A stretch of 64,000 nucleotides of DNA. It comes from Thysanoteuthis rhombus. Its lineage: Eukaryota > Mollusca > Cephalopoda > Oegopsida > Thysanoteuthidae. The notes below the pieces were generated by a model. That model was not told the DNA's origin and made no database searches. It was given only the letters and a program-made list of their open reading frames with translations. The stretch is taken from positions 30,930,716 through 30,994,715 of the forward strand of contig OY735220.1 of assembly GCA_963457665.1 (NCBI GenBank), read 5' to 3'. Positions 506 through 60,414 of the stretch are shown piece after piece (position 1 is the stretch's first letter; each line of letters begins with the position of its first letter). The position numbers and the translations under genes are program-made.

Positions 506-3500
506 GTAAGTTACAAAGGTATGAGCAAATAACTTGATATGAATACATGCCGTTCAAACACAGATATACTGTATATGCTGGCATATAAGTCTACCTCAAA
601 ACTAAGGTAATTTAGTCCAATACCCGCTAGATCAGTTGACTCTCCAAAATGAGGCAGCATAGTGTTCATCAAAGTGTCAAGTTCATAGGGTCTAAACTGA
701 ATAATATGATCCATTAGGGAAAATTATAGTCAACTTATATACAGTAATTATTGTCACTCCAACTTATTCCTTTGCTTTATCATTTATCATAGTACGTAGA
801 ATATGACAGGATTGTTTATGCATGGATCGGCACTTCTGCCTACAATCTGAGTATCTGTGCTCTATGAAAATGTCACTCTCCAACACTGCGCCCAGGATCA
901 GAATGTTGTGTTTGTGCATTCTGCCTCAAATCAAAGTGTGCTTCTTCTGCACTTCTAAGATCTGAGTGTAATATCTGTGTGCTCATTGAAAAGTGCTTCA
1001 CAAAAGATATGTATGTGGATTGTGTGTTATATATGTGGAGTTTTGTTGTATCTTCTTTTCTGGTTTTCTTTCACTCCTGTCTTTTTTTACTCAGCATCAA
1101 CTTTTAAACTTCCGTGAAGTATGCTTTTGGCTACTTGATTTGACAGTGCTGAAATGTCAAATTGATAATGGTAATTTTTCAGTCTTTAATAAGATACCTC
1201 AAGTTTACTTTATAATGTCATAAAAATGATCTAGTATTTTTAGAGATACACTTCAAAATTATTTTATTTTAGATTTATAATATATATTTTGTCCGATGGA
1301 CAACACTTGTAACATCCAAAAAACACTCCACAAAAATGTGATTATCCTATATACCAAGCTTTGAATTTTACTAAAAAAAACCCTCATTTGATTGGTTCCA
1401 GACCCCACACTAAAACCAATTTTTAAGCTACTGGTATATTAAACACCTGACAAACAAATATACAGGCACAGCATAAGTATTACCAGTAGTTTTGGGTAGC
1501 CAGCTTGAAATGTAATGGTGGCCAAGCTTCAAAGTGGAGAAAATATGCCAGTTTTGGCTGCATTAAACACCATTTCTCTGTTGGTCATTGTTGGCTTTCA
1601 GACCCCCCCCCCCATTACAGATGTATTCATTCTAAGTTCTTTTTCTACTTGATTGCAAATACAATAACACTAACTTCAAAATTCCATACAAACTATTGTA
1701 CAGAATGGTATGTCTTCAGTCTTTGAAAAAGCTGCTATAGTGTACTCAATTTTCATTTTGTACTAAAATCCATTAGTAACTACATGCACTAGTTAAAGTG
1801 TATTCCAATTATAGGATATCTTCTTTGAAGGTTTAATTTTGGTTATAATTGCAAAAAAAAGTAGCAGGGAGTTAGTCAGAGGGAAGAAAATACTTTTGCA
1901 TTATTTCAGTGAGTTTCAGACCATGTCTAAATACAAAAACACCAAATGTGTCATGATGTCATTTGAAAAATTTAAGTCAATTATTAAAAATCTTTCAAAA
2001 ATAGAATTAGCCCCGTAGAGAATTATGTCAAAGAAAATCAGTAAATTTAATGATTGATTGACTGTATTTTGGAAAAATATTGCTTACTTTTTACTGAAAA
2101 TTTAGTGAAAAATATATTTGTTTACTGCGTTTTTTTTTGTTTTTTTTAACAGTGAAGATGTTTCAAAGATCAACCCAATTCTCATACCCCCATACTTTAA
2201 CTAGTGTTAAACAAGCATTTGTTTTTAATGCATTAAGATATTACCATTTGTAGTATATTTGAATAGATTTAAGTATTACCCTTATACCATTAATACATTC
2301 AAGGTATTGTATTCATTGTATTGATATATCACAGCACTGATTGTTTAGTGCTCACTGACTTAAATTTCACGCTTTGGTAGTTTGGGGTTCAGCTTATACC
2401 AATGATATGATCTAAAACCATGAAATTCAATCCAAAATCAGGGTCTTGTCTTATCTGGGGGTCACCTTATCTACTGAAATACATGGTATATTTAGAATGA
2501 TAATTTAATGTCATCTTCTATGCAATTTTCAGGGAAGGTGCTACTTCGACAACTTCAAAATGATGGAGAATCAGCATATGAAAGAGAAGAAGATGCAATT
2601 ACTACTTTAGACAATTTAGAAAACCAGAAGCAAGTGAAAAGAATCATTCGTTTTTTGGACCACAAAATGGATCAACTCTATGACATCCAGGAAGCCAGAA
2701 ACAAGTCCAAAATGGTCAACCAGGAAGTCGCAGAGTTGCAGGACTCCATGAAAAAAGTAAGTTGGGAATTTAGTGACTCCTAAAAAATATATTTATCACT
2801 GATGGAAGTGGAAATTGATCTTTGTGTCACATAAATTCATGTCATTTTTCTCTCTATTTGCACGTGGACAGATATCCATAATCAAAGTTTTCAAGATCTT
2901 CAGCACAATTAAGAAGAGTCAGATGAAGATCACTACTATGATTCATGATTGGTTGGGAAAATAACTTCTAGATTTTATTATCAGTGAAATATGAAGATTA
3001 GTATTAAAGAATTTTGCACTTCACTAAACTTTCAAACAAATAGGTTGCCACTCAGACTTTCTTTATCACATCCATCTATTCTTTTTTTAAATTAATTCAA
3101 AACTTAAAAGTAGACAAGAAAAATGAATGGAGCCACAGCAGGGGATGGTTTTTGAGCCTTACTGGATGTCCAAGGAGGAAAATTTAAGATGAATTTAAAA
3201 ATCATGAAGAATAAGATGGCACACATCTTACTTAGATGGAAAACAAAATAATTAATTTTTGTTTCAAATGTTCATAGTTGACAATTTCTTCACCTAGATA
3301 TTATAAAAAAATTGTGCTTTGCTATGGGTGGTAATCCAGACTCCCTGTAAGACTTGATGACCTTGTTAGTTCATTATAATTGAAGCTGTTCTTGTTCTTC
3401 TTCTCTTTCAGGTGGTTGATTGGATTCTTGGGCCAGGTGAAAAGTTGCTTGCCTCCATGACTGACATTGGTGACAGTTGTGATTCTGCTGAAGTCCTTCG

Positions 3501-6500
3501 GAAAACACATGAAGAAATGGAAATCAAATGTGCTGTAAGTAGCAATTCTTTTTGTTCCAAGAGTTGTATAATTATTGAACTTTCTCTTCATATTGTTTTT
3601 ATTGTTATCACATTTCAGTTGATGCATTCTACAGCTTTCTCTATATGTACAGTCTGTTGATATAGAGAGAGATCTTTTTTTCTTATGAGATTTGTGGCTA
3701 AGAAAAGAAATGGTGATTAGTATACTGACTATCTCCGCTCATTCCCAACCATGCAGGCTACACAGGCAATTCTGTTTTCAGCAATCTGTGATTCTATATT
3801 TATATTAGGAAATGCTTGCAAATTCTCTCTTTGTTGAGCAAAGAAATTCAAAGAGTCCTCAAATCCACACTGGCCTGACATACTTCTCTGATGATCATGA
3901 TTGTATTCTGCGACTGTAATAGTTGAAACATCCTATAGCAGCATTCAGTCCTCCTTCCTTTCAAGCCACAGCATCTAACTCAGCGAGCATCCTTATCACC
4001 TTCAATTTCTCACTAGATTTTAATGTTCCTAATCCTGTGTCTTTGAGGTCTGCCTGATGCTTATCAAGCAAGTTTGTGCAAAGATGGCCTTTTCAAGCCT
4101 TGGAGTTGTTGAACTCTACTAGTACAAATTTCAGGGCTTTTTCAGCAGGTGTTTCTTCAGTCATCTGTAGTATATGGCTAAACATGGACTCCTGTAGTTG
4201 GGCCACTTTTGTTAAGAATTGTGTCACACGCCTTGTACAGAGCCTGGTTGGAGATCAGGCTGTTTGTCTATGGGTGGCCTGTGATAACTCGCAGATTTTT
4301 ACACTGCCCCTGGAGCTGCCAAGCTGTTGGAATTGTATGTCATCAAAGAAACATACATGCGCAGTTTCCTAACCCTCAGGTTAATGTGTGCTACTTCTTT
4401 CAATTCTCTGACTTTATTGTAGTAGTAAAAAAAAGCAACACAAAGAATGAGTTCAATAGCCCAAACAATATTTAGAATGATCACTTCTGTTTCTCAGGAA
4501 TAAAAATGGTTAAAGTTTTGTACTGGTCTTCAGTTAGTTCCATCATCTTGGCTGTATTATCTAATTAAAACAGAGTTATGAAACTGTCAATTACATTATC
4601 GATTGTAACAAAATCATGATTACAAAACACACCAATGTGATTTGTTGTTGTTGTCATCTTCTTTTTCTTGTTGTGGAATGAAATACAAATCAGACATCTT
4701 CCATTGTACTTGTTGAGTTCTTGCTTCCTATGAAATGTTGGTTTGGAGAGAGAATGAGGGGGTGAATAAGGAATGTCGTTTCTGACTGCATGGAAGGGTA
4801 GCAAGAATATTTCAACACCCCATTTTTGCTGTTTCTGCTCCTCCTCCTCCTCCCCCTGACACTGATGCTTGCTGACCGGTGTGGCTAGCTGTTCACTTTT
4901 TAAGCCAAATAAAATAGACATGTGGATAAATCATGTAACCTTTGCTTCCATTCATTCACATGTATAACCATGACTTTCTGATATTATGCCACACTATTGA
5001 ATATATTACAATTAGCTATCTAAAATTGATAACATGTAGATTTCAGTGTGCTAAACCAGGAATTATTCATATTCTTGTTCATTGATAAATTATGCAAAAT
5101 AAAATGCAAATTTGTCTTCAAAGGAGACCTATGGCAATTATGCTGAACTTCGACACAAGGCTGAAGAGGTCATCCAAGAAAATGAATCTTCTTCTGCAAA
5201 TGTTCTCGCTCAGAGGGATTACATGGATACTGTGTGCAGAGGTTTTGCCAGTCGATTGGAGAGACGCAAAATTTTGCTGATAACTTCTGTTCGTTTTCAC
5301 CGATTTGCTGAGGATGTAAGTTTGTTATATTTTTCTCTTAATCAAATTACATATTTAAATTATACGATAAACATACTCACTAAACTTGACTGTAATTTTA
5401 CTATGAAACTGAAATTGTCTATAATTGGAAATAGTATAATTGATAGCATTGGCTGTACTTAATCTTATTCATACATACATAGAAACATTACATTTCATAT
5501 GCTACATTTAACAGTATATAGAATGTGCATTTTAAAAAAAAAATGACTAAAGAAATTAACCTTTGTCCTTCAATATGCCAGTATTTTGTTGTGACTACCA
5601 TAGGCTAGTGCTATTTCTTGAATATCCTTTGCTGCAATGATGAAAGTCCTATCAAACATATTGTCCAGATATAAAATCTTATCTAGTATTTCTTCTCTTC
5701 TCTTGGCAAAGATTTTAGAACGGTATCTTTTTTTTTCTTTATTAAAAGGAATATCTAAAATTGTTGTGGTTACCGATTAAATAGATTTTAATTTAAATAT
5801 TGGCATAATGCCTATGTCAGACAGAATATTATCATTTTAATCGGGCAGCATTAAACCTCATTTAATCACTTAGGATTGGGATTTTTTTTTTTAAAACTTT
5901 GTGCTTTCAGACAGGAATATTTTTTTTAGATAGTTTTAGTGGAAAATGTCATTCTGTTTTAGTGGTTTGTAAATGCTATCAGTTCTTATGCAAAATTTCA
6001 TATTAACAATTATGTGATTTTCCAAACTAGAACAATCACAGCTTTCTCTGGCTTCATCACCATGTACAAATTGTTACCTGCCAGAGTTAGAAATATGAAG
6101 TTCTTTAAAAGTATATGCACAATGTTTTTTCAATGGGTGCCATATTAATCACATTCACTTAAATGCATCATTTTCAATCTAGCACAAGTAGTTGCAGAGC
6201 CTCTCAATGTGTGATATTATAATGGCAAAATATCTCATCAATTGCTCAAGAATTGAAAAAAATTCCTCCTGAGATATCTAATCAGCTTGTACAAAGTTAT
6301 TTCATTTAAAAAAAATCTGATTATTTCAAATAGGATTTCCATCTGAAAGTTTATCAAAAATCAATGAAGATATTTTGAAATATAATTATGACATGGGTCA
6401 TTCTATGTCAAGTGGACCAATTTGAGGAAAGTATCCCATTTGACCATTATTGATTTTACTCCAACTTTGATCTTGGGTTCTTTTGTGTCTGAAATGAAGT

Positions 6501-9500
6501 CCTGTAAAATTCTAGCTTGATATCTCTATTCATTCAGTCACTATGGATCCAAGAAAAAGGAATACGAATTTTTTTTTCTGGTACCAATACGAGAATGGGG
6601 TTCAAATGACTAAGAAAAAAAGTTACTCCCCTGTAATCTTTTAAAAGAAAGTTTTTGAGGCCTGACAAACTTGAAAACAATTCCTGCAGAAGGGTTCCAG
6701 GTTTGAGTGATGTAAATGAGTATAACATGAAGATATTTTTCAATAAATTCCGTCTGATAACGTATTGTAAATCATCATAATTTTTATGACGTCTTTTCAT
6801 CTTCAGCTTAATCTTTTAGCTGCTTTTTATTTTTTTAACTTTCAACTGCCCTGAATAAAAGTTACAATAAAACTTGAATTTCAAATTTGCTTTAAAATAA
6901 AAATAAGCAATCTTCTAGGCATAAAAACATTAGCATATGTAGATTTTGAAACCTTTGAACGGATGGATAATGGGAGCAGAAGTAAATAAATCCATGGATG
7001 GAAGATATTTTGTCTTAATTTTTTCGTTGCTTTTTATCATAACTTTTATTCATAAAAATTGACCATAAAACTGACATTCTCTCATTTCTCCAAATCCAAC
7101 CCTGGGAAAATCAAGGGAAGTTTTATTATAACTTTCATTCAGGCCAGTTAAAAATTTGAAATAATTAACAAGCAACTAAAAAATTAAGCTGAAAGTAAAA
7201 AGTTGTCATAGAAATTAAAGAATGATTTATAATACTTCAATGAATAAAATCTTTTGAAAAATATCTCTATTTTACACCCATTTACATCACTCAAACCCAG
7301 AACCCTTTTGTTGTGTCGCTCCAAGTTAGAACCGTCTTGTAAGAAATTGTTTTCATTTCTATCTGGCCTGGAAAAATGTTTTTTCAAATTCATGGGGAGT
7401 AACCTTTTTCTCCATCATTTGGACTTCACTCTTGTATTGGTACCTTTTTTCCATTTTCAACAAGTCACCATTCCATAACAGGTACTACTTGAATTGTACT
7501 GAAAATTTGTTTTGGGAGTCAACATTTTTTGTAGATTTTGAAAATGTTATCAGCTTAGCTCTAGGAAATATCTTTTTTTTTTTTCAGAAAAAGATGTCAA
7601 ATGGGATCCAAATTTCATCGTTATTTCCAGGAAACCATTAGGTAGTCATAACTCAGGACCTAGCTCACTTTGTGAGCTCTGTCTAGCAAGAAAGAGAGTA
7701 GTGTCAATTCAGTACATAATGTCAAAATTGAAATTTTTCTAGTGTTTCTAGATCCTGAGATACAAGTTCTCAAAAATGGTTACATGGGACAAACTGAACC
7801 ATTTTCTAACAAAAACCATATGAAAAGAGCGTGTTTAAAAATACTTGGGGTTAGTTCTTTGGGGGGGGGGCTTGATTCTTTCATGTTCTAATCAGTGAAA
7901 AGGAAACATTTCAATGCTCTATTGGAACCAGTGATGAAGATTGGTTTTGAGAACTAGGTATACAGAAAAAGCCTGATAGTGAATGATAAAAGATTTTTTG
8001 GTTATCAGGGACATAATGATCAATTGCAAAACAAAAATCACAATTAAACTTTAAAACTCATTGAAAAATCAGAAACTAAAAAAGAATTAAGCAGAAAAAC
8101 TAAATATCTGCTTTCATACACACGTGTACATACATACGTATGTACATATTGATAAGTCCACAGCCTTACGATGATAAAAGCATTTATTCTAAATGACAAT
8201 TTTTTTTTTTTTTTTTTTTTTTTTTTCCCTACTAAAGTCTCTTGAAAAGGTAGGAGATTAATTCAGTTGTGAATATTAATCACATAGATCTAACATTAGA
8301 TGATGAAAATTTTAACTTGATATCAAACTAATAATTACATATCAGGTAAAGTAAACCGTCCGTCTCTTTAGAGGCACTTCCAATGGAATATGACAGCCAG
8401 TTTCTATTGTACATGTCAGCTTACTGATCCTTGCAAATCTCAAGTCTGGTTGAAACCAGGACTTTATTCTTGCATGTTTTTTTATGACCACCCCCTCGGC
8501 AGGCTGCAAATCCACCAAAGGGATACCTCCGCCCTAATCATACAGCTTAGAGTATACTTACTTAGATGCTGAATGTACAGGGAGATTGTCCTAATGAAGA
8601 GTCAGGCTATGGACTTATTAATTGGAATTAATTCTCATTTATGTTGCATTGTCTCTTTTTATTTTAGCTGTCTTCTCATTTGGATGAATTATTGGAATTG
8701 CTATGTTCTGAAGTGAAAGTCGAAAATGCTGCAGCTGCTGAAATGGATCTGACCACTTTGAATGACAAATGCAAAGAAATAGGTATTCTTTCAAGTCAAC
8801 ATCTTTCTAGGGGGGGGGTATCCTTCTTATTCTTTAAATCTTCCACTTCTACTTGAGGTGCTGTAAAAAGTCGGGACTGGCGGTTGCATCAGTTCCATCT
8901 ATCCTCTTCCCTTTTCGTCTATTTTACCTGACTCCTGACTACATAGATCACCCTTCCCCAATCAGGGAGAAATGGGGGTGGGGGATGGTGATGGGCCCTA
9001 CTCTTCAACACCTGCCCACAATGTACTGGCAGAGGGGAAAAGACTGATGCTCGCCTTTCACAAATGATTTCAAACTATCTCAGCCAGAGTTTGAGCTCTA
9101 TAATCCCATTTGCTCTACCATTAACCACTTGGCCATCCACACCCACTAGGTTTTTTTTAACATCATCATTATCAGTCTTTTATTGTCCATTGTTGGACAT
9201 GGAACTTCTCCAGACCTCTCTATTGTGGGTATTGCAGAGCCAATACTTTCTGAACTTGTCTAGTTCGTCTCGCCATCTTATATCCTGCTGGCCACAGTTT
9301 TGCATCTAATATCTGAGGATCCGTGTTGTGAGTTGTGATATCCCGTGGTTGTCTGCCATTCTTGCAACATGACCAGCCCATTGTCATTTGCGTTTTCTGA
9401 TAGATTCTATGATGTCATGGACTACTGTTTTTCCCTAATATATCGTGCTGTCTTGTGCTCTCTCCATGTGATATTGAGCATAATTCTTTCATGTGTGCAT

Positions 9501-12500
9501 TGCGGGGTTCTCAGTTTCTTGTTTAGGTTCTATGTTTCAGTTCCATTGGTGACTATCAGGAATATGCATTGGTTGTATAACCTTCTTTTGAGGACTAATG
9601 GGATTTTCTTGTTTTTGAAGGTTAAGCTTGCTCTACCAAAGGCTTACCATTCTAGAGTAATACTTCACTTGATTTCTTTTAAGGATTCTAAGGAGAATGC
9701 TTGTTTTAGGTAGATGTAGTGGTCTACTTTCTCCAGCTTTGCATTTTTGATTTTGATTGCTATGTTTATTTCCAACATATTTGTGTACATAACTTTTGTT
9801 TCTCTGAAGTTCATGTGAAGGCCAACTTTCTTACTTTCTTTATTCAGTTCGTCCAGTATCAGTTGGAGGTCCTGAAGATTTTTAATTAGAGACATCATTT
9901 CCCTTGGGAGAAATTTATTTACCAAATTTGCCAGCAAAAGAGATGTACATTAAAAGAGAAAAAAAAAAAAACAATGCAAATATTATACTGCATCTAACCA
10001 CTGGTATTATGACTAGAGAGCTCTGTACTGAAATTTGAAATAGTCAGCTCTAGGATTGAATGTGTCGTGAAACATAATGGCAGGGGGTATGTGTACCATT
10101 CGCGCACCATGGCTGCAGTAAGAGAAGGAAAGAAAAATGCAAGACTCATGTTGGGATTGAAAATCAACCTTCATTTTCTAGTTTGACTGACCAAGTTTGA
10201 GGATCAAACAAACCCTACTGCTCTAAACTTCTGCTTTTCTTTGTCTATCTTGATGACCAACCTTTGCTTTGATCCTCCAACTTATAGATAAGGGTCATTA
10301 ACTTCTTTTACCAGGATACCAGAACTAAATGATCTTCTACCCATTTCTTTTCTATTTTCCTTCTGCTTTCTTTTGGTTCTCTCTTCCTCACAACACTGAA
10401 CTTACTATCTTACTGACTACTGCCTCTTAGCCCTTTTTATCAACCCCTTTTCACTTACTTTCTTCTAATGTCTTTTTAATTAATTGCCTGTGACTGGCTA
10501 TCTATCTAGGGAGGGGGTCCAAGTGCCCAGGCTTTATCTTGTCAATAAATCTACTTGGGATGTTCCTATCATACCTTTGGCAGCTGAAAAGGGTTACTCT
10601 TTTACACCCTCATACATACATACAAGTAAGTAGCATATCTTTAAGGACCAAGTATGTAAGTATAGTTCACATATACTCACGCAAAAAGTATCTTCAACAA
10701 ATATGTTGTTTGAAAATAAAACAAAATACTTGAAAAAAAAATGAAATGTTAAAAAAAACAGTCCCAATCAGGTTTCATATTGTAACAGTAGCAGTGAATG
10801 ATAGTCTCTCAATTACTAATTTTTTTAATTGTATATAAATTCATAAACTGATTTTTTTTTTTTACAAGTGTGAATATTTCATTATTCTTCATCATTAAAA
10901 TTGTGATCTTTTCCTAAATTATAAAAATACTCTATACAATTTTCATGTGTCCTGCTAGTGAAAATAACTTTCTATTTCTACTATTTCTCTCACTTACAGA
11001 TACTTTGGCCAATCAAACACTCTATGATGGACAAAGCTTATTGGATGAAATGTCTCGACCAATGAAGAATTCAACTGGAGTGGACATAACTCCAAGTTAT
11101 TCTAATCAGATAAAACATATAAACAAAAGTGTGGAAGATTTGCAGGAGCGGAAACTTCGGTGTGATGAGCTGGCTGATGTCCGCAGATTAAAACTTCAAC
11201 AAATTCTTCAACTTTTCACCTGTGAAAAAGATGCTGACCAGGTTGGTAATATCTAGTTAGGTTTTTTTTTCTAATTGCTATAGAATTTTAGTGTCTTGGG
11301 CCATAATAGAGCTGACTCATGGCTGGTGAGATGAGCAATAGGCATTTGGCTAAGGGATGGTTCACCAATGGATATATTACTGAATGAACATGGGCTTTTT
11401 GATTTTTGTCAGAGATCAGTGTTGTGTGTGATATCTGGTACTTCAGTTTACTCAATACTGCTGTTACCTTCTCAATTTTCAACTTTCAGTCCAACTGCTA
11501 TTTTCCTTGTTTTATAATGGTTAACATCACAAGAATGTTTACCATTACTACTCTGATTGTGAAACTAGGGATTTCATGATATTACTGAAATGTTGAGGGA
11601 TTTCACAAAATCACCAGTTTCGCAATCTTAACAGAGCCACTTAAACTATTAGGAAGAATGGAATTGAAGCAAAGGTAGAAATTGGTTACATAACTTTTAA
11701 TTTCTGCTTTCAAACTTCTTTGGATTAAACATTACATCTGCACTATTAAAAAAAAACTACACTGTGCATTATTTGCAATTGTCAAGGTCTACTGTTCATG
11801 CATATTGAGAGGAAAATAGTCTTTTGGTTTCTTGTTTTTTCTACTGATTCTTAGTCTTTTTCTGTTCCAGCTGACCGATTGTTGAAGTAGTCGTGAGATT
11901 GTGGTTTGCCCATGTGCTCACTTTGTCTACTATTGTGGCACACTAGCAACAAAGAGACCTTTTTGTAAAGATATGACTATTAGGATTCATACCTTTACCA
12001 AGGATATTAGTGCTAAGTGAACACAAGTATCCCCAGACCGTTCAGAGATAGGGAGTGTAAGCAGATTTGGGCCTAATAGTTAGCATCATCTTATCCCATG
12101 TTATTGCTGGAACTATGCCAGGTTGAGGACAGAGAGGAATTTCATGTAGCAAGCTCTGATTTATCTACCAACGTATGTGTGTGGCAGGGAGAGGGGGACT
12201 AAATGTGAAGCCAACACTGGATGACTTCATTGCACTAACCAACTACACCATCATCATCATCGCAACAGTTTGTTGTGGTTTGGCATCATATCTTGTTCAG
12301 TGGAAAGAATTCTGTAATTATATATTCTGAGAGATATCAGGCAATCTTGCTAGACTACTTGCTATACTAACTGCACTTATTAGTTTGGTTCAGTTGGTAG
12401 AGAAGATCATTAAAGGCTTAGAGGTCTTCAATTTCATCCAAAATCTTGGACTGATTAATATCTCTGAGGAAATTCAAAGTAAAAGAAAAAAAAGCTTCCT

Positions 12501-15500: not shown

Positions 15501-18500
15501 TCTCTTAACAAGTCTTATTTATGAATTGAACTTTACCATAGGTTTGTATTTCAAAAATCGTAGTATAGTGTATCGTGTTCATTACTATCAGTAGTCTCAG
15601 CACCCACCGGGGCCTTGCAACATATCACTCACAGACAACAGGGTACTATTGTATTACTGTAGCCATCTTTAAAGGGTGTTTTTGTCAGAATTGATTTTAA
15701 TTGAAACAGTATGATGATTAAGTGAGAGAATGATGACCAAAATATTCAAGGCTGCCAAAAATATCATCCCTAATGACCAACATGGTAGGAAGAGTTCATC
15801 TCAAGAAGTGGCTCTATCTCTCTGCAAATGAATATAAAGCTTAAGAGTTTCTGCTATGTATCATCTTCATAGTGCTTGGTTTTTGAATATGCTGAGTTTC
15901 AGTACAGAAATTACATTTTCTTTTCACTTACAGGCTGTTCAGTGGATCTTGGAGCTTTGTGATGTCATGGTAAAAAGTCACACTGAGATGGGACAGACAA
16001 AAGAGGATATTGAGAAGCTCCAGGAGGAACATAAAAATTTTGAATCAACTGCTTTAGTATGTTTCTTTCGATTTTTAGAAGATTTGTTTTTCATTATAAT
16101 CTGCAAAGGTAAATCAATGTCCGCAGCTTAATTATGAAAAAAGCATTTTTTGCACAATAAACATTTATTTTTCAACATAATCACCTTCTATGTCAGTGCA
16201 TTTAATTTGGTGGTAAATATCAATGACAGCTCAAACAGTAATTGCTTTAATCAAAATATAATGGTTCAGGGACATTTTTAAAACCTTGGTAATTCCATTA
16301 ACACTTGAAATTTTAAAATAAAGCTTATTCACAATATGAGACAAAAATATGGCTGTTTTAATTTTTTTTCCCCTAAATATCTCTGTGCTTAATTCAGGTC
16401 GATATCTCTTTCTGATTGATACACTTTTTGATTGTGGTTATTTTGCAGGGGACTTACCAATATGGAAAACAACTTTTAGAAGCTGCTTTGTTTCTGAGAC
16501 GCTCCCTACGATACAGTTTGGATGACAACAATCTTGTGGCTGAACAACTGGAAAGAGCTTGGAAAAAGTTCTCCCAAGGGACCTTGGAAAGAGCCAATCG
16601 ACTCACACTTTTAGCAATGTTTATATCGTCATCTGACAAGGTAGAAATATTCTTTACACAAATGGCATCTTGTTATTCTATGGCTTATCATGAACATTTA
16701 CTTAGGTTTAGCTTCGTTTTGCAGAAGGCTATAACTGAGTGGCATTCAGGAATGATCAAACTCTCTACACAGTAGTAGTGGCCAGCTAGACTAGATTCCT
16801 AACTGTTATCCCATTATTTGTTATTATATATATTGATTACTTTGGAGAATTAATAAAATGTCTCACCGAAGTGAAACAAAGACTTATAATCATCTGACAA
16901 ACAGTTAATTGTTTTTCACTTGATCAAGCACTTACAATTGCAGCTCAGTGATTTTAGGATAGTATTGTATGTTGAGAAGTTTGAGGTTGATGAAACTCAT
17001 TATTAAACATTAACTTAAAAGAAGAAATAGGGATTTTTACTAGATCAAAGGTTCCTTTCTCCTTAATTGCCAGTTTATTATAAAAGTCCATACAATAGAT
17101 AGATATTTACTGAGATTTGCAATGAACGTGAGGATCAAACTCACTACAACAGTAATGGTCTTCGCGGGTAATATTCTCAACAGCAATATGTTCTTATAAT
17201 GATATCAGGTTTGAAAAATGGCCTTACGAACCAACTTTTGTTCGAACGATTCAATCTCTTCGTCCCGTCTTTGTTGTTGACACGTTTTGGACAATTTATT
17301 CTGCTGCCCTTTTCATATAAAATATGATATCTGTAAGATCCCACAGAGGGCCGTAGTATGATTCAACCAAAACATATCAACAACAGAGATGGGAAGGGAA
17401 GATCAAATTGCCCAAACGAAAGTTGGTATTTTCTGTCTGAATTTTTTAGATGAGGGAATATCATCATGTAAAGTTTTTTGCAGACTTTTGTCCTCATCTT
17501 GACTCATATTTTGAACACAATGTTTCGGCCGGTGTATTATGGCCATCTTCATGAATGGGTGTATTTAAGAAAAAAAAATACACCCATTCATCACCTGAAA
17601 ATGGCCGTTTGGTACAACGGCCGAAATGTTGTGTTCAAAAAATGAACCAAGATGAGGACAAAAGTCCACAAGAATCTTTACTTAGAAAGTTGGTATGTTA
17701 ATCACTCTTCTCAAAGTTATAGACAATAGTCTTTTAGAAGTGTTGGGTAATCTTACTACCACTGTTACATCACCTCCTGCCACTTCTTATTCAACAGAGT
17801 GCAAAGTGTATAAGTGGAGGAGTACAGTTGAGTAGTTTATAAGCCTTGAGCTTAAATTCTTTTTTCTAATGGGTAGTCATATTTTCAGCTGAGCCTCATT
17901 CTGGAAACAGAGGTCAAAGTTGCAAAGTGTGAGCAACACATAGTGAACTGGAGTTAGTTCAAGTAGGCAGAAGTTCTTTGCTACTTTACGTGACTAGAGA
18001 TCAAAGGAATTATATGCAACAATCAGCCAATCAAGATTATGCTGTTATAACATATTAACATTAGGAATGATTTATTTTCCAAGCAGAGCAAATATGATTA
18101 GTAAGAGAATTCATACCCATGAAGAAGCATAAAAAAAATTTGGGGTACCGGGAAACAATTTGCTCACCATTGCTGAATGTTAGGAACAATAACACCTTAA
18201 ATATTTGGTAGGTTTGAGAATAGTGGAATAGTTAATGTGCTGATCTTGAAACTATTAATAATTACATAGATTCTCACTAAGTTCTCCACAACTGTGGCTC
18301 TTTGGCAGATATATATAGTTTCTGGTGTAGTTGCCTATCAGTTTTCTGCCTGGTATAGTTTTTCTTTCTTGTAAGAATCTTTTTCCTCCATCAGTGGCCC
18401 AATTATTTTATGTAGATCATTATCATATTTTATGCTTATCTGTAGATATTTGAAAAAGAAACACATCTCTAAAATAACCAATGTAGAATTATTGTAGAAC

Positions 18501-21113
18501 CTATGAAAAAGTGCTTGTTATTAGAATCTTTTAATGATGCAGCAGAAATGTGGATAGATAAGATATGAATTTTTACTCTATTTGAGTTATGTAGTTTTTA
18601 ACAGCCTTAATTGATTATGCCTTATCAGTATTTTCATCTAAAACCTTTATGAATTTTCTAGTGCAAAAATAACTTTAAAATGAACGAGTAGCCTATATCA
18701 ATATTTTTATAGTATTTTTTAGTCTCTCTTTTACTGACACATGCATTTTGCTTAGAAGCCATTACCAGGGATAAATGTAAGTAAATTAGGCTTGGAATTT
18801 TACAAAAAAATCAACTACTGTAGTATAAATAATTAAGAAATGGCTCCTCACACAACTCCACCTGCGGCCATTTGGTGAATAAGTGTGAGAACTGCAAAAA
18901 ATTCAAGTGTCCATTAGTAATCTTGTCTGGTTTAGAAGAGGTGCCAGACCGTCAGTTGCCAAAAATTGGTGGTAAGTCATAACTTGATTTCAGAATTCTA
19001 AATACGGTGATGTATCAACTATTATCCAAATTACATTCTGGTAGTATGGATGCAACTCAACCTGGGCGTAAGTTGATTATTGTAGGGTGAAGTCAAATAT
19101 ACCATGACACATACATATTTACCTAAACCACTGTATTGTACATAGATCTTGTCTTTCCGAAGAAGGAACAAATTTCATTCATTACATTTCTTTCACCAAG
19201 TCATTAGCTTAACCCAGCAAGGTGTCTGCTCTTTTTACCTCCTCCTTGCCTTCTATGCCTCAAGAAATTGAAATTAAAATGACTAAGCTAACAATAACAA
19301 GATGGAAATTTTTATCTTTTGCAGTCAAGCCATAGAACTTCATTGACTGAAATTTCTGTCATTTGCAGTTAATGGACTTTAAGCTCTTATAAGAACACAT
19401 CTGTAATTGGATGTAAGTTGGTCAGGTGTAAGTCTACGTATAGCTTTATAGAAAACTTTGATTGCATTTTACTCGAGACTTTATTTGGAATTAGCTCCAG
19501 ATATCTCTTCTTTTCAAAGTTAAATAATTTTCTACTTATTTTTCTCGAATATAAGGTTATGATATTTAAACTTATATTTTCTTATTTAAAAGTTATCAAT
19601 TCTGTAAAGATTTGCCTATTTTCAGTATTTTGCTTATTCTATTTCTACATAATTTACAGATTTTGGATCGAATCAACCAAGTCTTCACTGAAATATCTGA
19701 TCTTTATGAGAACAAATTACTGAGAGGAGTAGAACTAAGGAAAAAATATCAACCAGTATGTGATGTTCTTTTTGATGATTCTCTGGAAACAATTCAAATG
19801 GGAAAGGCCTTACTTGATCGCCTTGCCCTGCCTGTAATTGTAGCTGACGAGTAAGTCCCAAGTTTTTGGTTTTTTTTGTCTTTTTTTCATTTTTTAACTT
19901 ATTTTTGAAGAAAACTAATATCTCAAGTATGTATGCAATTGTTCAGCATCTGGAAAAGCAGCACAGGTAAAGGTCTTATTTTGCACAAATGCATTCCAAG
20001 AAAAATGGACAATCTGGGGTCTTTGTCCAGTATTGAAATAATAACAGGTGAAGTTTCTAATTTGTAATGAGATTGTCCTAAGTAAAAGCTTTACCTGTTC
20101 TTAATATTTTGCAAGTGATAATACCTTTCTTTGTATTGTTAGATATTATGTTATGTATTACATTTAGAGTGAAGGTTAAAACATTCAAAATTTGATCCCA
20201 GGTACAAGAATAATTTAGTACTGCAGTTCTTAAAGAATGGTCAATGAGACCCATGTAAGGGGTCCGCGAAAGATTCAAATTTTATGAATTTATTTGCCGA
20301 GAAAAAAAGAAATCTAGGCAATTCTACAAATTACAATCTTGCATCTAATTTGATAACTTTCAAGATAAAAAGTCCAGATATTGAATATTGCATATTCAGA
20401 AAACAGTGTGCTTGACAGCTTCCATATTTATAAAGACATTTCCAGAGAACTACATGGTAACATCAATGCAAATGATCTTTCAATACTTTTTAATGAAATG
20501 CATCAACATTTAGAACTTTTCAATTCACCGAGTGAATCATTTCCAAATGATCAAAGTATCATGTTATAAGGTAATGCTTTGGTTAGCTAATATTAGCTTA
20601 AGAAAAATGTTGAATAAAAACCTTTATTATTTTCCTTTTAGTTATACTTTATTCTAATTTTGCAGAAGTAACAAGAATTTCCTGACAGATGACAATGCAG
20701 CTTCTTCAGCCATCATGGCTAGTCTACAAAAACTGGAACAAATGATTTCTGAACTGCTTGACTACTGGAATGAAGTCAAATCTGACAATACCCTCTCTCA
20801 AAAAGCTGAAGTTAACCCACAACCAATCACGACTGCTCCAGTTGCACCTTTTCAGACCGAGCCTGCATCTCCAAACAGGCTAGGCTACCCCACATATGAT
20901 TCCATATCACAACAAAAAAATACATTATTAGGTAGTGCCATGAGTCCAAGTACAAGTAATCATTTTATCAGTATGGATGACTCTCATTTAACTGCTAATG
21001 TCCACGGGATTCCTACTGGCAATCCACGTGGCTTATCCCCTATAAGATCTTCCCCGTATGAACACAATATGGCAGGATATAAGGATGATGATCTCCTGCA
21101 AAGGTTACACGAT
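328..21113 (+). CDS. SESTD1: SESTD1-like gene, 3' ten exons (SEC14 and spectrin-repeat protein)
   Basis: SESTD1 is a cytoplasmic protein with an N-terminal SEC14/CRAL-TRIO lipid-binding domain and spectrin repeats; in vertebrates it binds phosphoinositides and partners such as TRPC4/5 channels and Dact1/Vangl2 (family knowledge). Ten exons join in one frame over 2028 nt (676 codons) with matching phases at every junction. The start, DFEKFMKEA, matches the vertebrate segment just after the SEC14 domain (FEKFTKES). Diagnostic blocks are VVDWILGPGEKLL, RKLRCDELADVRRLKLQQIL followed by QLFTCEKDA, and LLDRLALPVIVADE, each close to vertebrate SESTD1 as I remember it. The 5' exons lie left of the window. 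Between the 123-nt and 192-nt exons the protein keeps the helix pattern of spectrin repeats. The C-terminal tail is longer than in vertebrates. Identification is by remembered homology, not a database search. Confidence 0.9.
506..2532 (+). other. SESTD1 intron (2.0 kb)
   Basis: Contains a terminal fragment of the CGTATATGCTGG repeat (about 567-589), a copy of a dispersed repeat at 815-990 whose other copy is near 53220, and a C10 run near 1604. No coding evidence. Confidence 0.7.
2533..2756 (+). CDS. SESTD1: SESTD1 exon: first spectrin repeat, early helices
   Basis: Acceptor TTTTCAG ends at 2532; donor GTAAGT starts at 2757. Phase 1 to phase 0, 224 nt. The charged helical sequence (RQLQNDGESAYEREEDA, then IRFLDHKMDQLYDIQEAR) is typical of a spectrin-repeat helix and leads directly into the 123-nt exon that begins with VVDW, as in vertebrate SESTD1. 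It occupies the same slot in its module as the 242-nt exon at 11000-11241. Confidence 0.85.
3412..3534 (+). CDS. SESTD1: SESTD1 exon: spectrin helix with VVDW motif (123 nt)
   Basis: Acceptor TCTTTCAG ends at 3411; donor GTAAGT starts at 3535. Phase 0-0, 41 codons. VVDWILGPGEKLL corresponds to VVNWLEGPG in vertebrate SESTD1, and TDIGDS corresponds to GIGDS. The Trp at codon 4 is the conserved core Trp of spectrin repeats. Same length, phase and spacing of W, G, L and H as the exons at 15934 and 60292. Confidence 0.92.
3790..4368 (-). pseudogene. Decayed coding sequence, unrecognised
   Basis: On the minus strand, within the SESTD1 intron 3535-5123, one reading frame runs about 580 nt. Its in-frame stops are TGA at 4255-4257, 4093-4095, 3961-3963, 3895-3897 and 3859-3861, bounded by TAG at 4369-4371. 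The segments look like protein (FLTKVAQLQESMFSHILQMT, EKLKVIRMLAELDAVA) and the base composition is less AT-rich than the surroundings. All five internal stops lie in the same frame, as expected for an old processed pseudogene or transposon ORF. I do not recognise the family and saw no clear poly(A) tail. Confidence 0.45.
5124..5315 (+). CDS. SESTD1: SESTD1 exon: spectrin helices B-C (192 nt)
   Basis: Acceptor is CTTCAAAG ending at 5123, with a weak pyrimidine tract; donor GTAAGT starts at 5316. Phase 0-0, 64 codons, from ETYGNYAELR to RFHRFAED. The segment ETYGNYAEL lines up with EWFAVYVEL of vertebrate SESTD1 directly after the previous exon, and RFHRFAED lines up with EFHGVAQD. Matches the 192-nt exon at 16449-16640 in length and phase. 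Confidence 0.88.
5316..8667 (+). other. SESTD1 intron (3.4 kb) with long foldback
   Basis: Contains the long inverted repeat at 6580-7444 (listed separately), a G10 run near 7861 and a run of more than 25 T at 8200-8226. No exon-like sequence was found. Confidence 0.7.
6580..7444. repeat. Long foldback element (about 300-bp arms)
   Basis: Arm 6580-6872 matches the reverse complement of 7120-7444 over most of its length, with indels, around a spacer of about 250 bp. Shared anchors are GGTACCAATAC, GGGTTTGAGTGATGTAAATG-like sequence, TTTCAGCTTAAT and CTGAATGAAAGTTA-like sequence. Translations of the two arms on opposite strands (6534-6800 minus and 7254-7478 plus) are similar only because they are copies. 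This is a non-autonomous foldback, or two opposed insertions. Confidence 0.75.
8668..8782 (+). CDS. SESTD1: SESTD1 exon: inter-repeat segment
   Basis: Acceptor TATTTTAG ends at 8667. The exon opens with LSSHLDELLELLCSEVKV, matching LSQQLDGLLGMLCVDV in vertebrates. It must end after 8782, in phase 1, to join the next exon in frame; the donor GTATTC is weak. An alternative nearby donor was not found. Confidence 0.85.
8783..10999 (+). other. SESTD1 intron (2.2 kb)
   Basis: Holds the LINE fragment at 9150-9945. The rest is AT-rich with no recognised feature. Confidence 0.7.
9150..9945 (-). mobile_element. 5'-truncated LINE (RTE-like), reverse-transcriptase C-terminal part
   Basis: On the minus strand, ILDELNKESKKVGLHMNF followed by TKVMYTN and KLEKVDHYIYLKQAFSLES is the conserved segment of non-LTR reverse transcriptases that follows the FADD box. 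Past frameshifts, a GHVARMAD-type 3' motif (near 9340-9375) and a 3' end rich in ATGATG (near 9160) follow. The FADD catalytic box is missing, so the copy is truncated and dead. A second 3' end of the same family lies at 54340-54590. Confidence 0.75.
11000..11241 (+). CDS. SESTD1: SESTD1 exon: spectrin repeat with CDELADVRRLK motif
   Basis: Acceptor CACTTACAG ends at 10999. Phase 1 to phase 0, 242 nt. ERKLRCDELADVRRLKLQ is nearly identical to RKQRCEDMVDVRRLKMLQ of vertebrate SESTD1, the clearest match in the window. The end at 11241 (donor GTTGGT) is chosen because Gln-Ala-Val-Gln-Trp across the junction matches the vertebrate Gln-Ala-Val-Glu-Trp. The stronger-looking GTAATA four bases on would break the frame. 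Confidence 0.92.
12990..13105 (+). repeat. tRNA-derived SINE-like fragment
   Basis: GAGTTCAAATCCT at 13026-13038 fits the tRNA B box (GWTCRANNC) and is followed by the GGTTGGGTGGTGC-type body common in SINEs. No good A box or tRNA fold is left. Confidence 0.45.
13228..13330 (+). repeat. Half copy of a foldback repeat
   Basis: The GAAACATGACTATAAC block, the AAGATGAGGATACTAGT block and AAGTAAATCAG match the right arm of the foldback at 41624-41917. Confidence 0.55.
13879..14026. repeat. Small inverted repeat
   Basis: Arms near 13879-13934 and 13990-14026 share ATTTTTGAC(T/G)AGT and TTTTTATCAC in opposite orientation. Related sequence occurs at 22735-22800 and 50385-50445, so this is part of a dispersed family. 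Confidence 0.5.
15189..15651 (+). mobile_element. Tigger/pogo-like DNA element relic
   Basis: It begins CAGTTGTCCCCTCCTATCTG and ends with a related inverted terminus (TACAGACAACAGGGTACTATTG type), with TA on both sides (15187-15188 and 15652-15653), the target duplication of Tc1/mariner/pogo elements. Inside, KVFDSIRKDKN and, after a frameshift, EIGKIYSKNDSSIC resemble the N-terminal helix-turn-helix of Tigger transposases. It is internally deleted and frameshifted. Confidence 0.65.
15934..16056 (+). CDS. SESTD1: SESTD1 exon: spectrin helix with AVQW motif (123 nt)
   Basis: Acceptor TTCACTTACAG ends at 15933; donor GTATGT starts at 16057. Phase 0-0, 41 codons. AVQWILELCDVMVKSHTEMG aligns with the vertebrate AVEWLSELLDALLKTHIRLG, and LQEEHKNF aligns with LLEKHRKF. 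It is the module counterpart of 3412-3534. Confidence 0.93.
16165..16215 (-). mobile_element. mariner transposase C-terminus remnant
   Basis: On the minus strand, HQIKCTDIEGDYVEK followed by TAA (16165-16167) is the conserved C terminus of mariner transposases. The flank 16107-16164 is shared with the second remnant at 35400-35515. The rest of the gene is gone (TGA after a few codons). Confidence 0.65.
16449..16640 (+). CDS. SESTD1: SESTD1 exon: spectrin helices B-C (192 nt)
   Basis: Acceptor TTTTGCAG ends at 16448; donor GTAGAA starts at 16641. Phase 0-0, 64 codons. GTYQYGKQLLEAALFLRRSL aligns with [20 protein letters not shown] of vertebrate SESTD1. It is the module counterpart of 5124-5315, sharing T2, Y3, L9, F41, L52 and F58 in an ungapped comparison. 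Confidence 0.93.
17231..17426. repeat. Foldback element, 60-bp arms
   Basis: Arms 17231-17290 and 17367-17426 are inverted copies, sharing CCAACTTT(T/C)GTT and TTGTTGTTGA(C/T)A(C/T)GTTTTGG. A related element sits at 40589-40850. Confidence 0.8.
17468..17681. repeat. Foldback element, about 100-bp arms and tiny loop
   Basis: Arm 17468-17565 pairs with 17578-17681, with an A-rich loop of about 12 nt. Both arms carry GACTTTTGTCCTCATCTTG, TTTCGGCCG and GAATGGGTGTATT. This is one of the best hairpins in the window. Confidence 0.85.
19660..19850 (+). CDS. SESTD1: SESTD1 exon: third repeat with LLDRLALPV motif
   Basis: Acceptor AATTTACAG ends at 19659; donor GTAAGT starts at 19851, in phase 2. 191 nt. 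It encodes ILDRINQVFTEISDLYENK through GKALLDRLALPVIVAD, matching the vertebrate GKSLLDRLTVPVVYPDG. A Glu codon is split over the junction. Confidence 0.9.
19851..20665 (+). other. SESTD1 intron (0.8 kb)
   Basis: AT-rich. A possible hAT-like terminal piece lies near 20222-20345 (GCAGTTCTTAAAGAATGG and GGGGTCCGCGAAAG). No exon signal. Confidence 0.5.
20666..21113 (+). CDS. SESTD1: SESTD1 exon: C-terminal helix and Ser/Pro-rich tail
   Basis: Acceptor ATTTTGCAG ends at 20665. The first part (about 50 residues, including ASLQKLEQMISELLDYW) corresponds to the C-terminal end of vertebrate SESTD1. About 100 further residues follow that are rich in Ser, Pro, Thr and Asn (for example NPRGLSPIRSSPYEHN) and end in an acidic DDDLLQRLHD; I do not recognise this tail. 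A good donor, GTAAGT, starts at 21114 in phase 0. If unspliced, the frame runs four more codons to TAA at 21126-21128, with AATAAA hexamers from 21360. Whether the gene ends here or splices on is open. Confidence 0.85.
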
Positions 21114-21359
21114 GTAAGTATTGTTTAAGATAGCTTTAGTTTAGTTAAGCTGAACCTAGTTATTGGCTATTAATCCTAAAGCTGCATCATAATCTTTTAC
21201 AAGAAAATATTCATTAGGTTAGATCTTAACTAATGCTAAAGTATTAAAATTATCCCCATTACTAATTGAGACCATATCAGTTATGATTTGGCAGTCAGTT
21301 CAAGACCAAATATCAGCCTTTTTATATGATATTTGTTCTTATGTTCTGGATATATATTG

Positions 21360-44580: not shown

Positions 44581-44709
44581 ATGTCTGACAGTGTGTCGGA
44601 CATTACCTCAGACATAACCGATGTGTCGGAAATACCTCCCTCCACAACAACCATCAGCACAGTCGCTGTGCAAGCAGGGAAATCAAGAGTTGTCCTTGCT
44701 ATCCTCAGG
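44581..44709 (+). CDS. CCDC141: CCDC141-like gene, first coding exon
   Basis: CCDC141 (CAMDI) is a large spectrin-repeat protein that binds DISC1 and myosin II and acts at the centrosome in neuronal migration (vertebrate knowledge). ATG at 44581 has A at -3 and an in-frame TAG 45 nt upstream (44536-44538), so it is the first possible start in this frame. The exon encodes 43 residues: an acidic Ser/Thr/Asp-rich head (MSDSVSDITSDITDVSE), then STTTISTVAVQAGKSRVVLA. The latter is very close to the N terminus of vertebrate CCDC141 (STTTVSTVAVQAGDSKIVIA, from memory). Donor GTGAGT follows at 44710 in phase 0. It lies about 23 kb downstream of SESTD1 on the same strand. Confidence 0.88.
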
Positions 44710-53737: not shown

Positions 53738-53951
53738 ATTGCATATGCTGGACTATAAGACAAATGATTTGCAAGAATATTTGGAGGACTACTGCTCACT
53801 GCAACCTATCCAAGCCCCATAGCTGTCCATTTTGAGCTTCAGTAGACAGTCACACTGTCAGAGTACCAGTGCCTTGGACACAATTTTTTATTTGCATAGA
53901 TCTCTGTTTTTGAAAAATTAGATGTCCATTTTATATACCGGCATATATGGT
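53738..53951. mobile_element. MITE, second copy of the CGTATATGCTGG family
   Basis: Direct copy of 45021-45226. Both carry GACTATAAGACAAATG-like sequence, ATCCAAGCCCCA and TTTTATATACC(A/G)GCATATA. Confidence 0.65.
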
Positions 53952-54590: not shown

Positions 54591-55934
54591 TTAAAAAATA
54601 TAGGTGCTGGATAGCAGGTGAATCTCACAAGCCATTGTTCAATCCTTACTGAGTTCCAGTATCTGTAGGCAAAGACTACATCAGGGGACAAAAACAGTAC
54701 TCAGGAGCAGTCATGCTCCATTCGAGGGAAGGGCATAGTTATTATTTAAAGGGCATTATAATCTACAGGATATTTTGCACCCCTTCATATCTATGCCCAG
54801 GCGGCAACTATACCCCCTCTGGCTATGCCTCTTCCTACTCTTATTCCCTCTCATTTGACGTTGTGCTTGACTAAACTAAGCTTAGCCTATATATATATAT
54901 ATATATATCTGAAAGTAAAACATTCTTATAAAAAGCTTTTATTAGCAGAAATGCTGTAAAGTGAAAAATCTATTACCATTAATTCATATGAGAAAATTTG
55001 TGAGCGTTCTCAGATCCCCAAGATGGTGATGATGGTGTGTTAGGCTGTGGGGTTGGAGTAGGTGAGAAGTACAGGATGTTAGGGCTGTAGGATAGAGTGG
55101 AAGATGGTCTGCACTGTCTCTTTAACAGCTTGCTGAAAAACAAACGCTATATGTTATTTCTGCTTTTTGCTATTTTTATAAAAGCAAAAAAGTGGCTTGA
55201 AGCAAACTTTCGAAAGGTCAGGGATACACATGTATATTGCCTAGATTTTACACATAATTCTCATCAAAGTTCCATGAATTTCTCAATACACAGCTCTAAT
55301 GACTGCTTTTATTCCTTATCATTATATAAAGCTCAAAGTGAATGGAGAAGGCATTCAATGAAAATCAGAACCAATACTCTATGAGATATGAGGTACATAG
55401 ATACTAATCTGAAAAAATGTGGTACGAATAATCTTGGGTCTTTTGGTTTTTCTGGATACTTGTGTACTTTCTCACCAGTTTTATGCCCAAGAGACAAATG
55501 CAACATATCCAAACATGAGTATTATTAATGTGCAATGATCGTTTATGACTATTGTATGGGGATTGTGAAATATAAAACCCTTTGTTAGAATAGTGAGTCT
55601 TTATTAGTGAATGAGTTTTCTGTAATAACTCTAAATAGAAACATTTTCATGAAACCTAACAAACAAAAAGCTTAATTACCTAAATATAAAAATAGGTGAA
55701 TCTTCATTCATGGAATTTTTTTCTGCATTACTTTCTGTTTGTCCATTGATTAGAGAGAAAAGTTCTAAGAAAAAAAACATCTATTGCACAATGTCAGTAT
55801 TCTCCTGAATGTTTGAGATAAGATTCAGATAAAATTGTTCTATCTCTATTTCAGGATTCAAATAAGTAAGAATAAAGAACATTCTTCTGAAGATATTTTT
55901 TTTATCAATGAGTCATTTATAATATAACATATAA

Positions 55935-56065
55935 GCACTAATGATATAATATTCATAAGTGTACTCGTCTCATAAACCATGAACAGTAGGCTCAGTCTTT
56001 TATAAGTAATTTGAAAATGCTAATATCAAAGAAGGCTAATCATAACTATGTCTATCACAGTAGCA
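55935..56065 (+). repeat. SINE-like fragment
   Basis: GTAGGCTCAGTCTTTTATAAG, then ATATCAAAGAAGGCTAATC and ATAACTATGTCTAT match the family at 41285 in decayed form. Confidence 0.35.
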
Positions 56066-59000: not shown

Positions 59001-60291
59001 TAAAGTAAATTCATGTACTTATTGTGTCCAAGTGATATGAATATATAAGTTTTAGAGCACTATACAGGTGCCTACATAAGCAACTGTAAAATCACTATTA
59101 AAATAGATTATTTCTTAATTTTGGATAAATTAATCATGTATTCTATACAGCTTTGGTTCCAGATATTTCAACCTATGCAATGTCCTCCAAGAGATTCACT
59201 ATTAATCATTTCCCGTGTATTTTTACCGATTTCTTCCTCAAAATTTTCAATCCACGATTTGTTCTGTTGTAGAAAAGGTAGATGAACTGGCTGGGAAATA
59301 TTTGGTGGGAGTTTCATTTTTTCATTTTGCTTGGGAGAAAATTTAGTTTGTATTACTAGTACTCTCTCAAATTTATCATGAGTACCATACTGTGCTTGGC
59401 TAATGGCTACTTCTTATACTATAAGTGCGACAAACAAAGGAGGAAGAGGAGGGAAGAAAAGAAAAGTAGTTTAATGAGAGAGTAAGGATGGAGAGGGGAG
59501 AAAAGAAAGGTAGTTTAGGGTGGTTCTCATTATATATAAGATAATTTCAAGTATTATTTGTAAATTTGGCATTACTAGTATTTTACCATTAAAAACATCT
59601 AAAACAAAAAATCTGGAATTAAGCAGAAGTTGGGAAAAAACATGGGAGATGATTTGAAATTTGAATTTACTTTTCCTTATCATGTACATTATAGAAACAA
59701 ACTAGAATTTTTAAGGGCTTTTATTGAAAAGAAAATTGCAAATTTTTTGAAAGATCTCTCAAATTAAAGAGTATAAATTGACATTAGGAATAATGTAAAA
59801 TTGAATAAATGTTACATAATAGCGATATATACCTATGCAAAAGAGAAAAAAATTGTTTGCTTCTTGACAACAGTGAATGGGAAAATCTTGCTCGCAATGC
59901 TTATGCTCTGAGTACTAAACCTGGACCACTTGTTTAAAAAAATCATCTGTAAGATTGTTAAATATTCTATATATATCACAGGATTTGTTGCGAGGTTCCT
60001 ATTTAAAAAAGATTGGTATATGATTAACTTTTAAATTCATTCTAGTAATAAAAAATAATTGAAGGGAAGTAACTCCCACCTGTTTTTTTGGTAATTTTTC
60101 AGTTCACAAAAGAGTCCTATTTTTTAATTCTATCAATTGTAGAGCTACACAGGGGTTTATTAATCTAAGAGTTGAAGAATACAAAACAGATACACATTTT
60201 ACTGAAATTATTGATACATTGTATTCTTTTTTTTGTTTTATGTGTATAATTTTGGTAACAACTTTTCAATCAACCTTTTTTTTTGTTGCAG

Positions 60292-60414
60292 AGTGGAGAA
60301 TGGATACAAGTTCGCGTGCACCAAATGGAGCCCGATATCATGGATATTGGGACCAACCTGGAAGAAGCCCGTCAATTACACCAAGAACACATAGGCCTCC
60401 TTAGCCAGCTCAAG
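60292..60414 (+). CDS. CCDC141: CCDC141-like gene, second coding exon (first repeat, 123 nt)
   Basis: Acceptor TTTTTTGTTGCAG ends at 60291; donor GTAAGA starts at 60415. Phase 0-0, 41 codons. SGEWIQVRVHQMEPDIMDIG continues directly from AILR of the previous exon and corresponds to [20 protein letters not shown] of vertebrate CCDC141; LHQEHIGLLSQLK corresponds to LHDHELLLAKLK. The match in order and spacing is strong. The following exons lie beyond the window: no continuing spectrin-like frame was found in 60415-64000. Length, phase and W/G/L/H spacing equal those of two SESTD1 exons. Confidence 0.9.

Follow-up and report, generated by a model that had tools for sequence, protein, structure and literature searches.

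An exon cassette common to the spectrin repeats of SESTD1, a CCDC141-like gene and Trio in Thysanoteuthis rhombus, and its probable inheritance from one ancestral spectrin-repeat gene

The window analysed here is a stretch of 64,000 nucleotides (nt) from the cephalopod Thysanoteuthis rhombus (GCA_963457665.1, contig OY735220.1, here C25:30930716-30994715, plus strand). It carries exons of SESTD1 and of a neighbouring CCDC141-like gene, both encoding spectrin repeats, and we found that these repeats share an exon cassette with Trio of the same genome. We suggest that this Trio-type cassette was inherited in common and that SESTD1 and CCDC141 most likely go back to one paralog of Trio ('connectitin'), which was later broken up; to this we give a probability of about three in four. 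That the genes parted by fission rather than by tandem duplication, and in which order the events took place, we infer from the comparisons below.

The genome comprises 2.73 Gb in 514 contigs; the window has 32% G+C. A further 200 kb to the right of the window were included, and coordinates past 64000 continue the window numbering. Exon borders were read from splice signals, frame and homology; several acceptors in the flank are weak and were picked by homology and frame. Three stretches of N, 2.5 kb each (64001-66500, 84001-86500 and 166501-169000), could hide an exon. Repeats are labelled S (SESTD1), C (CCDC141-like) and T or SR (Trio), with A or B for the repeat type.

The exon cassette in three genes

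A sequence-only reading of the window had drawn attention to three 123-nt exons, two in SESTD1 and one in the CCDC141-like gene (3412-3534, 15934-16056 and 60292-60414). All three are present and open, in phase 0-0 and with AG/GT borders, and the five residues named as common to them (W4, I5, G20, L29 and H33) are identical in all three 41-codon peptides. At least five identical columns appeared in 0 of 100,000 trials when two of the three peptides were shuffled, and ungapped BLOSUM comparison with the CCDC141-like exon gave shuffle P values of 2e-5 for SESTD1 exon a and 1.2e-4 for SESTD1 exon b. W, G, L and H are common signature residues of spectrin repeats. As the W/I/G/L/H identity is the usual spectrin signature, the cut sites, rather than the residues, carry information. 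For the exon at 15934 the splice score favours a later donor at 16108; the 123-nt form, with its donor after 16056, was picked by homology.

Each 123-nt exon of SESTD1 had further been described as followed by a 192-nt phase 0-0 exon and preceded by a phase 1-0 exon of 224 or 242 nt and a phase 0-1 exon. The exons of SESTD1 agree with this:

328..505, plus: S1_B first exon, 178 nt, phase 0-1
2533..2756, plus: S1_B second exon, 224 nt, phase 1-0
3412..3534, plus: S2_A first exon, 123 nt, phase 0-0
5124..5315, plus: S2_A second exon, 192 nt, phase 0-0; acceptor weak and picked by homology
8668..8782, plus: S3_B first exon, 115 nt, phase 0-1; PF24915 genome match over the exon; also listed by a coding scan whose model had been trained on it
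11000..11241, plus: S3_B second exon, 242 nt, phase 1-0
15934..16056, plus: S4_A first exon, 123 nt, phase 0-0; homology-based donor
16449..16640, plus: S4_A second exon, 192 nt, phase 0-0
19660..19850, plus: S5_B, last, partial B-type repeat, 191 nt, phase 0-2
20666..21113, plus: SESTD1 C-terminal exon, 448 nt, phase 2-0, ends at GTAAGT

In brief, the 123-nt exon opens a two-exon repeat of Trio type, ~105 codons long and here called A-type. Introns in phase 0 interrupt such a repeat three codons ahead of W and again ~37 codons after it, giving exons of ~123 and ~192 nt. A-type repeats alternate with differently cut B-type repeats, making two repeats the repeating unit.

The next exon of the CCDC141-like gene had been predicted to be about 192 nt long and in phase 0-0. 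We found an exon of 195 nt in this phase ~9 kb past the window, at 73316-73510; a 189-nt reading of it scores nearly the same (10.3 vs 10.4 for 195 nt). C1_A appears to be complete without any exon inside the N stretch at 64001-66500. The ~123/192-nt exon pair occurs in five copies in this gene, four of them after C1_A (120-126/189-192 nt):

44581..44709, plus: first coding exon, 43 codons from ATG, ends in phase 0; putative gene start
60292..60414, plus: C1_A first exon, 123 nt, phase 0-0
73316-73510, plus: C1_A second exon, 195 nt, phase 0-0
73954-74062, plus: exon of C2_B, 109 nt, phase 0-1
74540-74784, plus: exon of C2_B, 245 nt, phase 1-0
75062-75181, plus: exon, 120 nt, phase 0-0
75314-75505, plus: exon, 192 nt, phase 0-0
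75881-76078, plus: exon, 198 nt, phase 0-0
76312-76425, plus: exon, 114 nt, phase 0-0
76864-76986, plus: exon, 123 nt, phase 0-0
79552-79743, plus: exon, 192 nt, phase 0-0
80565-80735, plus: exon of C6_B, 171 nt, phase 0-0
80866-81045, plus: exon of C6_B, 180 nt, phase 0-0
87482-87607, plus: exon, 126 nt, phase 0-0
91518-91706, plus: exon, 189 nt, phase 0-0
92119-92295, plus: exon, 177 nt, phase 0-0; 168 nt equally likely
92708-92836, plus: exon, 129 nt, phase 0-0
93460-93582, plus: exon of C9_A, 123 nt, phase 0-0
94686-94877, plus: exon of C9_A, 192 nt, phase 0-0

The Trio gene was located with PF23323 ('Kalirin-like, spectrin repeats'), which we took to be a Trio-type spectrin family. It has one match in the genome, on contig C34, with 24.2 bits (under the cut-off of 27); the spliced SR5 from this place scores 37.6 bits against the same cut-off, and SR7 has no PF23323 match at E <=10. 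Downstream of the repeats and on the same strand lies a RhoGEF domain (PF00621, C34:16651218-16651472, minus, 48.9 bits), in which stop codons presumably mark places where the match crosses exon borders. We take this gene to be Trio because it combines a Kalirin-like spectrin repeat with a downstream RhoGEF domain. In the 50 kb around the PF23323 match the array was read from the end of SR4 to SR8, and the repeats carry our own count, guided by what we take to be the arrangement of human Trio:

C34, minus: end of Trio SR4, 116 nt, phase 1-0
C34, minus: Trio SR5, 162+183 nt, phase 0-0
C34, minus: Trio SR6, 120+192 nt, phase 0-0
C34, minus: Trio SR7, 147 nt (0-0), 112 nt (0-1), 116 nt (1-0)
C34, minus: Trio SR8, last repeat, 123+183 nt, phase 0-0

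A protein search with SR6 listed seven places, namely its own two exons, four in contigs C29 and C39 and a weak one on C34 (E 3.8, minus strand, ~91 kb upstream of the SR4 end). The last, read from 1.6 kb of sequence, is an exon of exactly 192 nt in phase 0-0, which we take to be the second exon of Trio SR1.

First exons of A-type repeats measure 123 and 123 nt in SESTD1, 123, 120, 123, 126 and 123 nt in the CCDC141-like gene and 120 and 123 nt in Trio. The corresponding second exons measure 192 and 192 nt, 195, 192, 192, 189 and 192 nt, and 192 (SR1), 192 (SR6) and 183 nt (SR8), and all A-type exons read in the three genes are phase 0-0. W is the fourth codon in 8 of the 9 first exons, C9 having no W there. 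It is followed up to the cut by 37 and 37 codons in SESTD1, by 37, 36, 37 and 38 in the CCDC141-like gene and by 36 (SR6) and 37 (SR8) in Trio. Phase-0 cuts at W-3 and ~W+37 are found in 2/2 A-type repeats of SESTD1, in 2/2 first exons of Trio, whose SR1 second exon agrees, and, by W position, in 4/5 A-type repeats of the CCDC141-like gene (C9 was assigned by length). The cassette proposed for SESTD1 and its neighbour is borne out by these exon lengths, phases and cut sites. As controls we used 17 motifs from spectrin-type genes on contigs C9, C29 and C39 and from a dystrophin-like gene; one gave no exon and one no W. Among the remaining 15 W-containing exons, which are the best mechanical splice predictions and uncurated, none has W as fourth codon or ends 36-38 codons after it.

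The cut sites of the three genes are probably homologous and would go back to one ancestral spectrin-repeat gene. The Trio array has the same phase-0 cuts (SR6 and SR8), exons of ~123 and ~192 nt and two alternating repeat types. It differs in apparently having two successive B-type repeats (SR4, of which the end alone was seen, and SR5), in another phase-1 intron (with the 116-nt exon) and in the RhoGEF domain downstream. Since Trio has the same cassette, the cassette predates the split of SESTD1 and CCDC141 and cannot alone show tandem duplication.

From the usual spectrin fold, the exon borders are expected inside helices A and B, which suggests that the cassette records how repeats were duplicated and is not a functional module. 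Because the A-type exons read here are phase 0-0, the frame is kept when repeats or pairs of repeats are gained or lost, or when a new first exon is placed before them.

Fission, tandem duplication and general heritage

We compared two-repeat units with phmmer. C2B3A scored 46.6-54.9 bits against Trio and 16.4-25.8 against SESTD1 units; S3B4A scored 37.4-39.8 bits against Trio and 25.7-25.8 against C2B3A; and S1B2A scored 30.1-31.5 bits against Trio and 16.4-17.0 against C2B3A. C8B9A was nearly even (19.9-21.0 bits with Trio SR5-6, 18.7-19.5 with C2B3A), and C4B5A and C6B7A reached at most 10.0 bits with anything. Single A-type repeats scored best with Trio in 4/7 cases and with their own gene in 3/7. 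Taken by halves, Trio was best partner in 4/7 for the 192-type (same gene 3/7, other window gene 0/7) and again in 4/7 for the 123-type (same gene 1/7, other window gene 2/7). The two cross-gene cases are C5-S2 (4.8 vs 4.5 bits for Trio T8) and C9-S2 (2.9 bits). B-type repeats were closest to Trio in 3/6 (S3, C2 and C6), to their own gene in 2/6 (C4 and C8) and to the other window gene in 1/6 (S1, 3.4-4.5 bits). That SESTD1 and CCDC141 are each other's closest relatives is not borne out by these comparisons.

Colinearity with Trio SR1-SR8 fits for C1 with T6 and C3 with T8; C2_B is nearer to T5_B than to T7_B, and C9_A matches T1. The repeat tree has no starred branch and was not used to place the genes. 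Spectrin-type matches in PDB searches were to alpha/beta-spectrins only; an NCBIfam search, and a phage search run as a check, gave no match.

The sequence-only reading had proposed that the two genes descend from one ancestral spectrin-repeat gene by tandem duplication. Common ancestry is supported; the exon argument does not support the duplication itself, as the cassette is also found in Trio, and the sequence comparisons do not single out the pair as closest relatives. We suggest instead that a single Trio paralog would have broken into neighbouring genes, the downstream part acquiring a first exon of its own at a cassette border in phase 0. Fission is favoured because Trio is the best partner in 4/7 A-type repeats and the other window gene in 0-2/7 (by halves). 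On one strand the order is SESTD1, CCDC141-like gene and titin-like immunoglobulin (Ig) I-set exons, and this order together with the best-partner counts fits the connectitin idea better than tandem duplication. The fission of a Trio-like ancestor is the better account, unproven as it is.

The 43-codon CCDC141 leader joins exactly at the phase-0 A-type border, and SESTD1 ends with a B-type and CCDC141 starts with an A-type repeat, so that the alternation is kept across both genes. This junction fits an in-register break, though as a coincidence it has a one-in-two chance. Tentatively, SESTD1 and CCDC141 may be the halves of one Trio-like gene, broken between a B-type and an A-type repeat with the B-A-B-A register kept; the second half would have captured its first exon, of 43 codons, where a phase-0 intron is conserved.

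Several points weigh against fission. A slow-evolving Trio could yield the same best-partner pattern, so the pattern does not place the genes. A phase-1 intron lies 80.7 (S3_B), 81.7 (C2_B) and 74.7 (S1_B) codons before the repeat end; this SESTD1-type intron occurs in 1/4 of the CCDC141 B-type repeats and is absent from the two Trio B-type repeats compared, SR5 and SR7. Should it be missing from Trio SR2 and SR4 as well, it would group SESTD1 with CCDC141. Of the four repeats compared with S5_B, C2_B is its best match (12.8 bits; S3_B 3.8, Trio SR5 0.6, SR4 end 0.5).

Trio has introns 76 (phase 0) and 38.7 (phase 1) codons before the end of SR7 and 61 (phase 0) before the end of SR5; the phase-0 introns of C4_B, C6_B and C8_B lie 38, 60 and 43 codons before theirs. 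Those of C6_B and SR5 agree within one codon, as was noticed afterwards, and SR5 is also the best phmmer partner of C6_B (9.0-9.8 bits).

Under tandem duplication, a SEC14-spectrin gene would have been copied alongside itself, one copy becoming SESTD1 and the other losing SEC14, gaining Ig domains and becoming CCDC141. The genes are adjacent, on the same strand and share the cassette, and PF24915 (Spectrin_SESTD1) matches C2_B in the context of neighbouring repeats (28.3-29.2 bits, 17.4 bits alone); the phase-1 intron and the S5_B match above point the same way. Against this, sharing a cassette that Trio also has is uninformative on copying between these two genes, and no SESTD1 A-type repeat has its best match in CCDC141 in either half. 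Cnidarian proteins are described that combine SEC14, >10 spectrin repeats and Ig domains, as fission predicts (PMC12198301). We consider tandem duplication unlikely.

That such introns are merely common in spectrin repeats, by convergence or general heritage, and say nothing on kinship is very improbable: the common residues are the usual ones, PF00435 also matches these repeats and many of its genome matches start or stop near profile position 44, but none of the 15 control exons has either border, and two exons on C39 stop one codon past H where the cassette exons stop 8 codons past it.

The genes and their surroundings

The spliced S3_B matches PF24915 with 115.7 bits (cut-off 27), and the genome search with this family at E <=1 gave two matches, both inside SESTD1. 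C2_B matches PF25075 (DUF7799) with 74 bits, and the genome searches with the two families listed matches only in the window or its right flank. The SESTD1 end is ambiguous: there is a good GTAAGT donor at 21114, yet reading through gives an in-frame TAA at 21126-21128, possibly making this the last exon. The N-terminal SEC14 domain of SESTD1 would be expected to the left of the window. No SEC14 domain was found on C25 among the 17 matches listed in the PF13716 genome search (E <=10), and the SEC14 searches listed no match on C25 or C34.

A plus-strand coding scan, with a model trained on these same genes and blind to first exons, found no internal exon between 21113 and 60292. From the sequence we take SESTD1 and the CCDC141-like gene for two genes, head to tail. 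The latter, which we class as CCDC141/zormin-like, has a presumed likeness to the N-terminus of human CCDC141 and may be its ortholog. The first intron of this CCDC141-like gene holds several long simple-repeat arrays, visible as low-complexity open frames (~45.9-46.3, 47.0-47.3, 48.4-49.0 and 49.4-49.9 kb).

Spectrin repeats continue to ~95 kb and are followed on the same strand by I-set exons from 97.4 kb, which may share a transcript with them. All three Ig-like peptides tested are I-set, and a spectrin-like peptide from ~95 kb matched no family. A crude count of Ig motifs over 264 kb gave 36 on the plus strand and 0 on the minus strand. Amid the Ig exons are two very long open frames, 208317-216743 (2809 codons) and 229982-234508 (1509 codons), with repeated units that by eye are rich in Glu, Lys and Ser, as in titin-type proteins.

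C25:761000-770999, considered as a possible Trio, was rejected, since by eye its spectrin repeats are dystrophin-like. The opposite strand of this C25 stretch shows reverse-transcriptase-like fragments, likewise by eye. On contig C41, a weak SEC14 match (CRAL_TRIO_2, C41:42499526) and a RhoGEF match (C41:42584137) lie 85 kb apart on the plus strand; this pair is possibly an MCF2/DBS relative and a useful outgroup for the cassette.

Published context and significance

SESTD1, CCDC141 and titin have been proposed to stem from one TRIO/KALRN paralog, connectitin (Hanashima et al. 2025, PMC12198301). According to this paper, cnidarian connectitin has SEC14, >10 spectrin repeats and Ig domains, and the three internal promoters of kalirin appear to match the start points of SESTD1, CCDC141 and titin; Octopus sinensis is named in the legends of the SEC14 and kinase trees. 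Its SESTD1-CCDC141-CON(TTN) cluster resembles ours in gene order on one strand, with a spectrin part followed by Ig I-set exons. By its description, the row CG15822 - zormin - sls in Drosophila, a SEC14/spectrin, a spectrin-plus-Ig and a titin-like gene, is comparable as well. The paper differs from the present analysis in that its main text uses the word 'exon' 4 times, in a passage that deals with the exons of titin itself, and does not contain 'intron'. SESTD1 is described elsewhere as resembling Trio in the spectrin part and as hindering Rac1-Trio8 binding (PMC4536496), and it has been grouped with Kalirin, TRIO and MCF2 relatives by its SEC14-spectrin layout (PMC9823006).

Literature searches on 'connectitin' and on zormin with CCDC141 gave nothing beyond PMC12198301, and one on spectrin repeats with intron position, phase and duplication found no paper. 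The gene cluster has been described before; as far as the literature was searched, support at the level of exons appears to be new. As presented in PMC12198301, the Trio-paralog origin of titin, CCDC141 and SESTD1 has so far rested on synteny, domain layout and SEC14 and kinase trees, and the common intron positions add an independent line of evidence, drawn from the spectrin repeats. If the in-register split is true, the cassette would be a marker by which one could date when repeats were gained, genes split and domains lost within the Trio-SESTD1-CCDC141-titin group.

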